The notes beneath the pieces are model-generated. The model was not told the DNA's origin, made no database searches, and was given only the letters and a program-made list of their open reading frames with translations. From assembly GCF_000218625.1 (NCBI RefSeq), contig NC_015672.1:310001-374000 (forward strand): 64,000 nt of DNA, in the 5' to 3' direction. Shown here piece after piece: positions 4,740-62,203 of this stretch. Positions within the stretch are counted from its first letter, which is position 1. Every line of letters starts with the position of its first letter. Both the position numbers and the translations under genes were made by a program. Origin of the DNA: Flexistipes sinusarabici DSM 4947 (GTDB lineage Bacteria; Chrysiogenota; Deferribacteres; Deferribacterales; Flexistipitaceae).

Positions 4740-4808
4740 CTGATTTATTCCTTTAAATTAGCTGATATGTTTCATTTACGGGCTAATCACCCGGTTTGAT
4801 GCGTTCCA

Positions 4809-4844
4809 CTAGCATCGGTCATTGACCGATAAATTTGTGTCTAC
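4809..4844 (+). repeat. REP-like hairpin repeat, copy a
   Basis: CTAGC followed by a perfect 7-bp stem (ATCGGTC / GACCGAT, loop ATT) and then AAATTTGTG. It belongs to the family of hairpins with constant CTAGC at one foot and AAATATGTG at the other; stem sequence varies between copies but stays paired. It lies in the 240-bp gap upstream of dnaX, which holds no gene. Confidence 0.7.
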
Positions 4845-4956
4845 AATATATTTACCCGCCTTAATCTGGTGTTAGCAGATAAAAAATTACATATTTTGTA
4901 AGATTTATTTATGTAAGTTAATTTAGTTTAACAGAATAATCAATCATATTTTAGCT

Positions 4957-6437: not shown

Positions 6438-6768
6438 CTGGCATCACCCCAAAAATTATATAAAAATATTGTTTTACATATACTTAGCTAACATGACACT
6501 GATTTCAATGTAATTTGCATAAATGAAGCAGCCGATGTCTGAGAAACGTACTACCGGTTAGCGGTCACACCCTGTGTTGGAAAGTAAAGTGGATAAATAT
6601 TTGCAAATAAAAACAATTATGAGGGGAGGGGGATGTGTTCCACATATTTACCAGCCTTACGGCTGGTGCTAGTAGACGGTTAGCGGCAGTAGTTTCGAGT
6701 TTCGGCTGCGAAATGCGTGCAAATTACATTGAAAAATATTTGCACTGCGAAAAATGGGGTGACTTCAG
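6438..6768. mobile_element. MITE-like non-autonomous element, copy 1 (331 bp)
   Basis: It starts CTGGCATCACCCC and ends GGGGTGACTTCAG, the inverted repeats of IS-A, and has no coding capacity. The first roughly 50 bp resemble the right end of IS-A (ATTATA.AAAA.ATATTG) and the last 20 bp contain CGCAG next to CCCCATTTTT exactly as the left end of IS-A does. Internally it is one long imperfect palindrome. TATTTTAG occurs on both sides. One REP-like hairpin (6635-6672) is inserted in it. Confidence 0.8.
6635..6672 (-). repeat. REP-like hairpin repeat, copy b, inside MITE copy 1
   Basis: Reads GTTCCACATATTT, then the 7-bp stem ACCAGCC / GGCTGGT with loop TTAC, then GCTAG. It occupies the same internal position as copy g in MITE copy 2, while MITE copy 3 is empty at this position. 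Confidence 0.75.
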
Positions 6769-6943: not shown

Positions 6944-7225
6944 CCGAGCATTTAAAGCATTAAGTGCTCGGTCGAAAGAATGCCTGGGGCTAGCACCAGT
7001 CTTTTAGACTGGTAAATATGTGTAACATCCTATTTAGCTATCGCTGATAGACAGTATGCATGTAATTGTCACATCTCGCCCTGTTGAATGCCGAAGGCAA
7101 ATAGCAAAGCTATTATTCAACAGGGCAAGCGAAGCCGAGAGGTCTCTTGTCAAACAGCGTCTGAGATCTCTCCGCTCCACCGAGCACATAAATTCTTATG
7201 TGCTCGGTTCCGGTCGAGACGACAA
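6944..7225. repeat. Intergenic hairpin repeats between the MITE and the ABC operon
   Basis: The 640 bases from 6769 to 7410 hold no credible gene. They contain a CCGAGCA / TGCTCGG hairpin (6944-6971), a REP-like hairpin (6990-7025), a 12-bp inverted repeat GCCCTGTTGAAT / ATTCAACAGGGC (7078-7126), and a perfect 30-bp palindromic block centred on AAATTC (7179-7208, arms ACCGAGCACATAA). The last block and its flanks recur in inverted orientation at 57536-57600. Short ORFs across this region are shadows of repeats. Confidence 0.7.
6990..7025 (+). repeat. REP-like hairpin repeat, copy c
   Basis: CTAGC, perfect stem ACCAGTC / GACTGGT with loop TTTTA, then AAATATGTG. Same family as copies a, b and d-h. 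Confidence 0.72.
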
Positions 7226-14632: not shown

Positions 14633-14840
14633 CATCACGGCCTTTCCCTTTCCCCTTGCAATCCCCTGCCGGTATTACTATAATTATTATTAATCTCAAC
14701 AAGAAAGGAGCTCAGACATGCCCGCTGCAAAAAATGAGCTGACAAAAGAGCAGATTCTTCAATACTTACGTGAGCATAAAAAAGAATTATATGAGAAATA
14801 TGGTGTCCGGAAAATCGGACTTTTCGGCAGCTATGCAAGG
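14633..14840 (+). repeat. Duplicated leader and first 41 codons of MNT antitoxin gene, copy 1
   Basis: From CATCACGGCC through the ribosome binding site AAAGGAG into codon 41 of the MNT gene this is almost identical to 24356-24563; the only sizeable difference is a 10-base stretch just before the ribosome binding site. After the codons for GSYAR the two sequences diverge completely. Confidence 0.88.
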
Positions 14841-16584: not shown

Positions 16585-18353
16585 CTCCTGAAATTGCCTT
16601 TACGCTGACAATACTGGTTTTGATGATTATGGGAATGGTTTTTGAGTGGTTTGCTCCTGATGTGATAATGTTCAGCGCACTGGGTATTTTTCTTTTAACG
16701 GGGATACTGGATCCTGTTGACGCTCTCAGCGGTTTTTCAAATAAAGGTATGATGACTGTAGCTGTTTTGTTTCCCATAGCCTTTGCCGTACAAAAATCCG
16801 GATTTTTATCTGCAATGGCGGATCGTTTTATAGGTAAAGCCAAAGACGGTCGAAAATCCCTTCTTAAGATTATGCTCCCCGTATTCGGTCTTTCTTCCTT
16901 TTTAAATAATACACCGGTGGTAGCAATGTTTATCCCTACGGTAAGGGACTGGGCGCTTAAAAGCAAAATTTCTCCTTCCAAGTTCCTGATTCCTCTTTCG
17001 TATGCTTCTATTTTCGGTGGTATCTGCACTTTGATAGGCACTTCAACCAATCTTGTTGTAAGCGGGATGCTGTATGATTACAGAAATATTTCGCTGAATA
17101 TCTTTGATATTACACTGATTGGTGTTCCATGCGCCATAGGCGGGTTTGCATTTATGATGTTTATCGGTCACAAACTGTTGCCCAACAACCCCGACCTTCT
17201 TAATTCGTTTGCCAAAGCAGGTATTGAATACCTTTACGAGATGAAAGTAAAAGGAGAAAATCTTGCAGGTAAAACGGTCGAAACTGCAGGATTGAGGAAT
17301 TTGGAGGACATATACCTTGTAACACTTGTAAGAAATGGAAGTCAGATTTCACCGGTAAAACCAACGGAAAAATTATATAAAAATGATATACTTCTTTTCT
17401 CGGGCAAAGCCGACGGTATTAAAAAATTACAGGCTATAGAAGGTCTTGAGCCCATACATGATGACGATTTCTGCAGAGAGTTGCTGGAGAAAGGCAAGGC
17501 AAGATTTACGGAAGTTGTTGTTTCAAATTCATCCCCAATGCTGGATAAGACAATTAAAGAGGGCAACTTCAGGAGCCGTTACGATGCCGCAGTGGTTGCT
17601 GTTCACAGACACGGAGAAAAACTGAACGAAGGTATTGGTAATCTGAAGCTTAAAGCAGGTGATACACTTTTATTGATAACGGGTGATGATTTTATAAATA
17701 TCTGGAGTGGTTCCAGAGATTTTTATCTTATAAGCAAAGGTGATAAGATACCGGTGGTGGATAAGCGCAAATCGTGGATATCACTTATTTCGGTACTTGC
17801 AATGATATTATCTGCTACTTTTGGTATCACAAGTATTTTTACTGCTGCATTTATGGTTCTGGTGATACTTTTACTAACAAAAACGCTTTCTGTATTTGAA
17901 GCGAGAAGGTCACTGGAATTGAACGTTATAATAGTGATTGCAGCAGCCCTCGGAGTAAGCAAAGCACTGGAGCAGACAGGAACTGCAGGTTATCTGGCTT
18001 CTTTTATTGTCAACTCTGTTGGAAGTTTCGGAAATATCGGCTACTTGGCTGCTATATATTTTTCAACGACACTTTTGACTGAAATTATTACCAATAATGC
18101 CGCAGCAGCCCTGGTATTTCCCATCGCCATGTCCCTTTCTGCACAGTTAGGGCTTAGCCCTATGCCATTTGCCATGGCTATAGCCGTTGCAGCATCAGCC
18201 AGCTTTTCCACACCCTTAGGTTATCAGACAAACCTTATGGTTTACGGGCCGGGGGGATACAAGTTCAGTGACTTCTTAAAAATTGGCATTCCTCTGAATT
18301 TAACATACATGATTATTTCAGTAATACTAATACCGTTTATATGGAGCTTTTAA
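16581..18353 (+). CDS. SLC13-family anion/sulfate permease with TrkA-C domains
   Basis: 590 residues. It has about 11-12 membrane segments divided into two halves, with the family motifs NNTPVVAMFIP and GTSTNLVVSGM in the first half and ITNNAAAALVFPIA and TPLGYQTNLMVYGPGGY in the second. Between the halves are two RCK-C/TrkA-C domains (about residues 210-380). This is the layout of bacterial SLC13 sulfate carriers. Its place between a regulator and cysQ, cysD and cysNC strongly suggests sulfate. The start overlaps the regulator stop (ATGA). Confidence 0.9.
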   Translation: MTPEIAFTLTILVLMIMGMVFEWFAPDVIMFSALGIFLLTGILDPVDALSGFSNKGMMTVAVLFPIAFAVQKSGFLSAMADRFIGKAKDGRKSLLKIMLPVFGLSSFLNNTPVVAMFIPTVRDWALKSKISPSKFLIPLSYASIFGGICTLIGTSTNLVVSGMLYDYRNISLNIFDITLIGVPCAIGGFAFMMFIGHKLLPNNPDLLNSFAKAGIEYLYEMKVKGENLAGKTVETAGLRNLEDIYLVTLVRNGSQISPVKPTEKLYKNDILLFSGKADGIKKLQAIEGLEPIHDDDFCRELLEKGKARFTEVVVSNSSPMLDKTIKEGNFRSRYDAAVVAVHRHGEKLNEGIGNLKLKAGDTLLLITGDDFINIWSGSRDFYLISKGDKIPVVDKRKSWISLISVLAMILSATFGITSIFTAAFMVLVILLLTKTLSVFEARRSLELNVIIVIAAALGVSKALEQTGTAGYLASFIVNSVGSFGNIGYLAAIYFSTTLLTEIITNNAAAALVFPIAMSLSAQLGLSPMPFAMAIAVAASASFSTPLGYQTNLMVYGPGGYKFSDFLKIGIPLNLTYMIISVILIPFIWSF

Positions 18354-18355
18354 TG

Positions 18356-18390
18356 TGTCCACATATTTACCAGTCTCCGGCTGGTGCTAT
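18356..18390 (-). repeat. REP-like hairpin repeat, copy d, at the cysQ start
   Basis: CCACATATTT, stem ACCAGTC / GGCTGGT (one G-T pair, loop TCC), then GCTAT. It fills the gap between the SLC13 stop and the cysQ ATG; reading through it from a GTG at 18355 gives a spurious 12-residue extension of CysQ. Confidence 0.72.
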
Positions 18391-19234: not shown

Positions 19235-19460
19235 AAGGGCTAAGGAGCAAGGAGAAAAGCCGTGATGCGTTAAACGTGAGACGTAAGACGTTAAACGTGA
19301 GACGTAAGATGTGGAAGGTGAAACGGTTGATGTGGTTTATAAAGTTGAAGTAGTTGAGATGGTTGTGGAAGTTAAGATAAGAGTACTAAATACTAAGTGT
19401 TAAGATTTAAATAACACCTTATCAACGTTGAACGTTGAACCTTGAACCTTGAACGGAGAA
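19235..19460 (+). repeat. Degenerate tandem repeats between cysQ and cysD
   Basis: No gene lies in 19195-19481. From 19262 there are units of the type TTAAACGTGAGACGTAAGACG, then 9-base units GTTGAnnnn (19325-19380) matching 15380-15545 in the opposite orientation, then GAACGTTGAACCTTGAACC units (19425-19460). Such variable-period repeats recur at 24300-24360, 25215-25260 and 40090-40130. Confidence 0.65.
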
Positions 19461-24185: not shown

Positions 24186-24355
24186 AACATAAACCTCCTT
24201 AATTTTTATTTTAAGGAGTATTTACTAACTTAGCAATTTTAGATTTTTATCCCATTTTCATTGAAGCGATACACAACCTTCTTAACCTATACCTTTACCT
24301 CTACCTTCTCACTCCTCACGTCTAACGTCTTACGTCTCACGTCTCACGTTTAACG

Positions 24356-24563
24356 CATCACGGCCTTTCCCTTTCCCCTTGCAATCCCCTGCCGGTATTA
24401 CTATAATTATTATTGTATCGCTTCAAGAAAGGAGCTCAGACATGCCCGCTGCAAAAAATGAGCTGACAAAAGAGCAGATTCTTCAATACTTACGTGAGCA
24501 TAAAAAAGAATTATATGAGAAATATGGTGTCCGGAAAATCGGACTTTTCGGCAGCTATGCAAG
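24356..24563 (+). repeat. Duplicated leader and first 41 codons of MNT antitoxin gene, copy 2
   Basis: Near-identical to 14633-14840. The divergence point in both copies is directly after the codons of the nucleotide-binding GSYAR motif. Upstream, 24300-24355 carries TCTAACGTCTTACGTCTCACG-type repeats. Confidence 0.88.
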
Positions 24564-32903: not shown

Positions 32904-33020
32904 AATTCTATCCTTCGTTCAAATTTTATATTCTTTCAATGTAGCATTTTAGGTAGTCAAGGTCAAAATTTTCTGACGTCACCCCATTTTTTATTGTGTA
33001 CACAAATTGATTGACTTCGT

Positions 33021-33113
33021 CTAGCACCAAGCTTTTAGACTGGTATATATGTTGTTAAACATTCAATTTAGCTATTTACATAGCTGCCAATCGGTTTTCG
33101 ACCGATGCTAGTA
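33021..33113. repeat. Pair of REP-like hairpins in inverted orientation, copies e and f
   Basis: Copy e reads CTAGC, a worn stem ACCAAGC / GACTGGT, then ATATATGTTG. Copy f reads ATCGGT / ACCGAT then GCTAG, the opposite orientation. Together they make up most of a roughly 130-bp insertion in MITE copy 2 that the other two copies lack, resembling a REP doublet. Confidence 0.65.
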
Positions 33114-33186
33114 GTGCAAATATTTTTCAATGTAATTTGCACGCATTTCGCAGCCGAAACTCGAAACTACTGCCGCTAACCGTCTA

Positions 33187-33232
33187 CTAGCACCAGCCGT
33201 AAGGCTGGTAAATATGTGGAACACATCCCCCT
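33187..33232 (+). repeat. REP-like hairpin repeat, copy g
   Basis: CTAGC, stem ACCAGCC / GGCTGGT, AAATATGTGGAACACAT. Same site as copy b in MITE copy 1; empty in MITE copy 3. Confidence 0.78.
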
Positions 33233-33317
33233 CCTCTCATAATTGTTTTTATTTGCAAATATTTATTCACTTTACCTTCCAACACAGGGTGTGACCGCTA
33301 ACCGGCAGTACGTTTCT

Positions 33318-33362
33318 CTAGCACCAGCCTTCCAGGCTGGTAAATATGTGGAACACATTCGA
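33318..33362 (+). repeat. REP-like hairpin repeat, copy h
   Basis: CTAGC, stem ACCAGCCT / AGGCTGGT, AAATATGTGGAACACATTC. The same site is empty in MITE copies 1 and 3, where ACGTTTCTC runs directly into (A)ACATCGGCTGC-type sequence. Confidence 0.78.
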
Positions 33363-33650
33363 CATCGGCTGCTTCATTTGTGCAAATTACATTGAAATCA
33401 GTATCATGTTAGCTAAGTATATGTAAAACAATACTTTTATATGATTTTTGGGGTGATGCCAGCAAAATTTTTACTAAATTGCTGCCCAACTATTTTTTAA
33501 AAGAGATATATCAACAGCAGGATATTATTGGTGAAATAGTAAAGTGGTGAGATAGTGAGATTAAAAGTCCAAACTCCAAATATAAAGATAAGCTCCGGGA
33601 TAAAACTCAACTACCTCTAACTGAGACAGTTTTATTAAAAAAAATACTAA

Positions 33651-42396: not shown

Positions 42397-42687
42397 TTGG
42401 CATCACCCCAAAAATTATATAAAAGTTTTGTTTTACATATACTTAGCTAACATGACACTGATTTCAATGTAATTTGCACGCATTTCGCAGCCGAAACTCG
42501 AAACTACTGCCGCTAACCGTCTACACCCTCCTCTCATAATTATTTTTATTTGCAAATATTTATCCATTTTACATTCCAACACAGGGTGTGACCGCTAACC
42601 GGCAGTACGTTTCTCAAACATCGGCTGCTTCATTTGTGCAAATTACATTGAAAAATATTTTCACTGCGAAAAATGGGGTGACGCTAG
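42397..42687. mobile_element. MITE-like non-autonomous element, copy 3 (291 bp), no hairpin insertions
   Basis: Ends TTGGCATCACCCC and GGGGTGACGCTAG, as in IS-A and the other MITE copies. The right 24 bases equal the left end of IS-A (CTAGCGTCACCCC, ATTTTTCGCAG). Internally the arms TTTCAATGTAATTTGCAC and its complement, and CTAACCG with CGGTTAGC, build one long hairpin. It lacks the REP-like hairpins of copies 1 and 2 and so serves as the empty-site reference. Target duplication unclear. Confidence 0.8.
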
Positions 42688-61899: not shown

Positions 61900-62203
61900 T
61901 TTACCCAAACTTAATCTTCTGCAATGACCCTTGCAAAGGAAGCAGCGTAAAGCTCAAGTCTTCCGGTCGGATGCAGCAAATGGATGTCTGGTCATAAATT
62001 TGTTTATTGACCATTGGAATGGATCAAAAAAGTCGGCAAATTCAATGAGATCGGACCACAAGGACAAAGATTTCCGAGGTGGAAGGGAAACCTCCGCTTT
62101 CCCTCTTGACATTCTTATCATGGATGTCCCCTTTAGTTATAAGAATACTTTTTTCCGGTGCCGAATCTAATTTTCCTCACACTTACGAAGTGTGAGGGGG
62201 AAG

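Follow-up and report, generated by a model that had tools for sequence, protein, structure and literature searches.

Filled and empty sites of a 38-42-nt double-hairpin unit in Flexistipes sinusarabici and its congeners

The window analysed here is a stretch of 64,000 nucleotides of Flexistipes sinusarabici (G000:C1:310001-374000; the G000 genome is complete, 2,526,590 bp) and holds three copies of a MITE together with ten whole or interrupted copies of a short double-hairpin unit. MITE copy 3 (42399-42684, ends approximate) contains no unit and serves as the empty reference. Copy 1 (6440-6764, ends approximate) carries a single unit on the minus strand (6632-6671) in site 1, and its site 2 is empty. 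Copy 2 (32977-33460, ends approximate) has received five insertions, counting nested ones: a 40-nt unit in the same site 1 (33188-33227, plus strand; CTAC|A), a 41-nt unit in site 2 (33319-33359, plus strand; TCTC|A), and three units lying one inside the other. This distribution over the three copies agrees with an earlier sequence-only reading of the window. The nested group, which that reading had described as an inverted pair at 33021-33113, does consist of inverted units but has three levels, a plus-strand unit within a minus-strand unit within another minus-strand unit. The outermost is a TAGCATCGGTC-type unit near the MITE end (32993-33110, minus strand), with uninterrupted relatives in L181 and L195. 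It encloses a second unit, TGGCAGCTATG...GACGAAGTCAATC (33009-33089, minus strand; uninterrupted at L096:1361 and L204:688), which is itself interrupted by a third of 42 nt (33022-33063, plus strand).

The remaining units of the window lie outside the MITE copies. A 38-nt unit (4810-4847, plus strand) sits in hairpin 2 of an older host unit (4798-4874, minus strand), another is found within a different repeat (6991-7029, plus strand; AATGCCTGGGGC|), and a further 38-nt unit (18352-18389, minus strand) occupies a locus that is also filled in the congener G001. The window also contains a 147-bp duplication of 98% identity (14693-14839 and 24417-24563), which spans the beginning of a 103-aa and a 125-aa nucleotidyltransferase-like gene; these share their 5' part and diverge at their ends. 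Degenerate short tandem words, ACGTCTAACGTCTTACGTCTCACG, occur as inverted copies 5 kb apart (19249-19365 and 24310-24374), and similar words flank one unit in G001 (L211).

Nearly all whole copies are 38-42 nt long and follow the order 5'-TAGC, hairpin 1 (6-7 bp), AAAT, hairpin 2 (4-5 bp) and a final T or C. Hairpin 1 reads ACCAGCC-loop-GGCTGGT and hairpin 2 ATGTG-gaa-CACAT, both with variants, and the 3' end reads CAT(T/C). The sequence-only reading had recognised at least eight hairpins of 35-45 bp with constant feet. The repetition stands, with ten units in the window, but each unit comprises two hairpins rather than one and the feet have to be redrawn: the initial C of CTAGC as a rule belongs to the target and lies outside the unit, and the AAATATGTG "foot" combines the constant AAAT with the 5' arm of hairpin 2. 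The tetranucleotide feet vary least within the unit (TAGCA in 69 and AAAT in 81 of 88 distinct copies), and the stems differ widely between copies (e.g., TAGCAGCAACAAAGTTGCTAAATTTGCCGTAGGCAAC).

Both hairpins covary. Among 18 diverse copies 97.2% of the cells are paired, a level reached by none of 500 shuffles, and double changes occur in 7 of the 12 pairs. The larger set of 88 distinct copies, in which 131 double-change cells stand against 37.7 in shuffles, gives 96.5% pairing; the covariance model had fitted this alignment to the structure. Mismatches within the helices are similarly rare for G.T (16) and A.C (20) among 1030 cells and therefore give no hint of RNA selection on one strand. 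DNA folding recovers the two-hairpin fold in each of six units, with z-scores of the single-strand fold from -2.4 to -5.4. The unit lacks terminal inverted repeats and target duplication, the hallmarks of a MITE; the host MITE and the double-hairpin unit are separate elements.

A genome-wide pattern search, which the sequence-only reading had proposed, returns 39 matches against 3 with a reversed-pattern control. A covariance model (E<=0.001, best 150 candidates per genome) finds 84 copies in G000 and 103 and 28 in the congeners G001, the genome with most units (99% complete), and G002, an 88%-complete draft; under the same limit of 150 candidates, a further 36 genomes from the order yield no copy. 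An exact 20-mer searched in 84,980 species genomes matches twice outside the genus. One match is a Deferribacteraceae draft (UBA1873), whose sequence equals that of G002 at the compared locus, and the other is dismissed as chance, its DNA having no hairpin 1. Searches for the exact unit pattern in viral contigs and for the MITE copy 2 region in plasmids and phages gave no match. Among the genomes searched, the unit is restricted to the genus.

Evidence of movement comes from sites found both filled and empty. Of 16 MITE copies compared, 12 lack a unit at site 1 (CGTCTAC|ACCCT) and 4 have one; at site 2 (TTTCTC|A(A/G)ACATC) a unit is missing from 15 and present in a single copy, and more filled copies exist elsewhere. 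The empty copies bear no deletion scar. An orthologous pair from two genomes adds to this, in which the 38-nt unit at 4810-4847 is missing base for base from G001 and the empty junction there is intact (TTCCAC|ATATTTACC). The alignment extends over 4,954 bp at 96.3% identity, its two flanks measuring about 4.8 kb and 110 bp, and by this comparison the unit is a recent, clean insertion, younger than the split of the two related genomes. The pair of units at G000 637371-637454 is also missing in G001, but the flanks are altered there and the case is not counted as proof. No orthologue was found for the unit site at G001 C12:10842, the single locus searched in this way.

Units also occur outside any MITE, in other repeats, in istB, in a transposase-like gene and in a riboswitch. 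The sequence GGAAGTGGG|ACTTTAGTCCC is found both with and without a 39-nt unit; GTGGG|ACTTTAG is a clean site, free of target duplication. Removal of a 39-nt unit from the istB gene of an IS21 element restores the reading frame and VHHSHLLVFQGESWRV, improves the IstB_IS21 match from 173 to 194 bits and lengthens it from 219 to 235 of 238 domain positions. Five identical IS21 copies each carry the unit in istB (G000 29637, 762679, 880991, 1823021 and 2030411; L017), which truncates the end of the gene in all five, so that the IS seems to have multiplied after the insertion. A transposase-like reading frame of G001, IS110-like as judged by eye (a 60-aa piece without Pfam match), holds a 39-nt unit in frame. 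A 38-nt unit lies between CTGTCTGCCTG and AAGTCAGGCAGACAG of a cobalamin riboswitch in two genomes (L155:4489-4776, minus strand; L189); it falls in a variable stem, in a region that the Rfam model treats as an insertion, and the riboswitch still scores far above the Rfam threshold. Finally, older units are repeatedly hit in hairpin 2 by younger ones, which enter at an identical point and inverted (CCAC|ATATTTACC).

The locus L155 of G000 shows two further features. One is a unit that provides the stop and the last codons of an anaerobic ribonucleotide reductase-like gene, at whose 3' end it lies (L155:2169-2206, G000 818168). The other is a MITE-like insertion (L155:1995-2155), some 150 nt long and with CAAGTTTCGCACTT ends, which is missing from the G001 orthologue.

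The intact states, whether reading frames, palindromes or host hairpins, are the empty ones, and insertion is thus the derived state. That the units merely hitch-hike on the MITE is rejected, since they also lie in other DNA, in istB, in the transposase-like gene and in the riboswitch. The clean insertion points claimed by the sequence-only reading are borne out by the scarless MITE sites and by the G000/G001 pair. These, with the insertions outside MITEs, also uphold its proposal that the hairpins are mobile in their own right, and there is very little doubt that the units move.

The insertion-point consensus that the same reading had called for can be written as 5'-Y-N-N-(C/G)|A-3' from 31 separate sites, which were picked by hand and some of whose flanks are themselves repeats. 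Position -4 is C in 21 of the 31 (P 4.7e-9, assuming independence) and T in 8, making a pyrimidine in 29; position -1 is C in 16, and position +1 is A or C throughout. With nested and derived sites removed, C still occupies -4 in 15 of 24 (P 3.7e-6). Where the empty state is known, the +1 base is A in 11 cases and G in 1, and in six insertion events the target A has become C, a change of one base at the junction. T stands at -4 in both units that have a TAA foot (P 0.06; n=2), too small a sample to build on. A foot-target pairing rule of the IS608 kind, as read here, would predict TANG; this is not observed at the sites, and the rule is rejected for the unit.

The genes that might act on such a unit are few. 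Searches with Pfam Y1_Tnp detect three RAYT-like Y1 (HUH) genes in G000 and at least four in G001, and give no match in G002 (28 units; 88%-complete draft). All three G000 genes score 63-68 bits with the NCBIfam model REP_Tyr_transpos (NF047646), for which the cut-off is 80. The best of them (G000 2,043,375; L014:2520-3400, ~2,043,020-2,043,900) is flanked in both G000 and G001 by a hairpin of its own, CACACTTCGTAAGTGTG, whose family is present 11 times in G000, with one copy in the window at 62178-62194, and 15 and 8 times in the two congeners. This REP family is separate from the TAGC units. No unit was found beside the Y1 genes examined, the best covariance-model hit having an E-value of 0.06 and lying far from the genes. 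The sequence-only reading had suggested a TnpA-REP or IS200/IS605-like enzyme elsewhere in the genome. Three RAYT-like genes are indeed present and the layout of the unit fits HUH recognition, but a RAYT or IS200/IS605 gene flanked by the same hairpin, for which it proposed to look, was not found. The other two RAYT-like genes encode about 294 aa (L015:2128-3009 and L016:2695-3603) and have three relatives in G001; the one in L016 lies between GGGGACAGGTAAA and TTTACCTGTCCCC, which are separated by about 1.4 kb and may mark the two ends of a separate Y1 element. The three genomes gave no match to TnpB, nor to an IS91-type Y2 transposase in a search run without positive control.

In IS200/IS605 elements each end is a hairpin of 20-25 nt whose foot has a guide tetranucleotide on its 5' side, and a tetranucleotide target adjoins the left end (PMC6006769). 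Cleavage at CT and CA is described for one TnpA-REP (PMC8266576), and fused IS605 ends without target duplication are known as some PATEs (PMC3119063). By analogy, the TAGC and AAAT feet look like putative guide tetranucleotides. The two foot-and-hairpin modules, the constrained tetranucleotide on the left and the lack of target duplication favour single-strand HUH activity in trans. The unit is a non-autonomous mobile element of 38-42 nt, resembling two IS200/IS605-type ends fused with nothing between them. It enters 3' of a loose tetranucleotide Y-N-N-C/G and ahead of an A, without target duplication, and hairpins of other units are frequent places of insertion. A Y1 HUH transposase, either a RAYT-like enzyme of the genome or one since lost, would cut and join the folded unit.

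Mobilisation of the units in trans by a Y1 HUH transposase that works on single-stranded DNA is a proposal whose chances appear evenly balanced. The presence of three HUH genes in G000 speaks for it. Against it stand the absence of flanking units at the Y1 genes, the association of the best RAYT with another REP family and the lack of a Y1_Tnp match in the incomplete G002 draft, which nonetheless has 28 units. The 5' target is degenerate, with only -4 and -1 constrained, unlike the fixed target tetranucleotide of IS elements; a simple IS200/IS605 insertion would not predict the A to C change; and the strand bias that lagging-strand insertion would produce amounts to only 12 of 17 in a hand count (P 0.07). 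More tentatively, the unit may be a DNA transposon cut down to its left-end and right-end hairpins with their guide tetranucleotides. At about 40 nt it would rank with the smallest known elements of mobile DNA, and it would use an unlinked HUH enzyme and a relaxed target and prefer the right-end hairpin of its own kind.

It is highly improbable that the empty sites are deletions of hairpins originally present, even though the junction of some filled copies shows a one-base difference, C for A. More than 10 MITE copies have an identical, intact empty site, and the istB frame, the GGGACTTTAGTCCC palindrome and hairpin 2 of the host are whole only without the unit; the many identical intact empty copies likewise lead to rejection of a deletion in MITE copy 3. 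Copying without any dedicated enzyme, by template switching during replication and recombination between hairpins, would suit the hairpin-rich places in which units lie and the recombination observed among units, for example in MITE copies (52357, 1490041) that have lost the segment separating two of them. However, the ends are exact and repeatable, the target preference at -4 is specific, and insertions are clean in unrelated DNA and coding frames, all of which make this origin decidedly unlikely.

Units might also spread by way of RNA, with reverse transcription of a copy and its joining into DNA, a route that has reportedly been proposed for the cyanobacterial SDR elements. The lack of target duplication, the conserved fold and the reverse transcriptase genes found once each in G000 and G002 would be in keeping with this route, and similar elements elsewhere have been explained so (PMC2800124). 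However, RVT_1 has no match in G001, the 99%-complete genome richest in units, G.T is no commoner than A.C in the helices, and random joining of cDNA would not constrain the base at -4; the RNA route is accordingly rather unlikely. The exact junctions, the specific target position and the lack of a linked known enzyme could instead point to a recombinase that is neither a HUH enzyme nor a reverse transcriptase, with the enigmatic small mobile repeats of Haloquadratum as a parallel. This, too, is improbable, as no candidate gene is linked to the units and two hairpins with 5' feet suit HUH enzymes better than most recombinases.

The spread of REP-like and other tiny repeats has long been obscure because filled and empty sites are seldom caught together. 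Exact junctions by the dozen are available in this genus, along with a target consensus, at least one recent insertion and few candidate HUH enzymes, which makes the mechanism of very small mobile elements directly testable. A term check of the genome paper of Flexistipes sinusarabici finds mention of transposases and showed no such repeat (PMC3236037). Very small mobile repeats are already known, namely PATEs, small mobile repeats, REPs/REPINs, SDRs and double-hairpin elements. New here are the sequence family, the two-foot layout within 40 nt, the target consensus and the orthologous pair of filled and empty sites.

The units resemble REPs and their RAYT/TnpA-REP partners (REPtrons, REPINs) in having a hairpin with a constant 5' tetranucleotide foot, in their high copy number within a genus and in the presence of RAYT-like genes in the genome. 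By contrast, the foot is TAGC or AAAT instead of GTAG or GTGG, each unit has two different tandem hairpins instead of one REP or an inverted REP pair, and the unit is absent beside the RAYT, which has its own CACACTTCGTAAGTGTG hairpin. The cyanobacterial SDR elements of Elhai et al. 2008 are said to be 21-27 nt long, with compensatory stem changes and precise insertion points, to lie in minitransposons and to be nested in their own kind, much as the very small units here are. They differ in length (38-42 nt here), sequence, hosts and target. SDR elements are also described in papers citing that work (PMC4390886, PMC3116915).

The double-hairpin elements of Allomyces mitochondria also have two hairpins per unit, are thought to be mobile, cause no target duplication and are tolerated in genes, and an RNA-using mechanism was suggested for them (Paquin et al. 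2000, via PMC2800124). They belong to fungal mitochondrial DNA and are not known to share sequence with the units here. The PATEs of Haloquadratum walsbyi, which are IS605-related, likewise lack terminal inverted repeats, have near-terminal palindromes, make no target duplication and are too short for a gene, and their palindromes are targeted by other small elements (PMC3119063). The features that mark PATEs as derived from IS200/IS605, exact junctions and a covarying hairpin with a 5' tetranucleotide foot near each end, are present here as well. Unlike PATEs, the whole unit measures only 38-42 nt and occurs in another phylum, and no parent IS605 or TnpA with the unit's ends was found (no TnpB in three genomes; Y1 loci free of units). 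Nevertheless, of the systems described so far, the fused-end PATEs of Haloquadratum come closest to the unit (PMC3119063).
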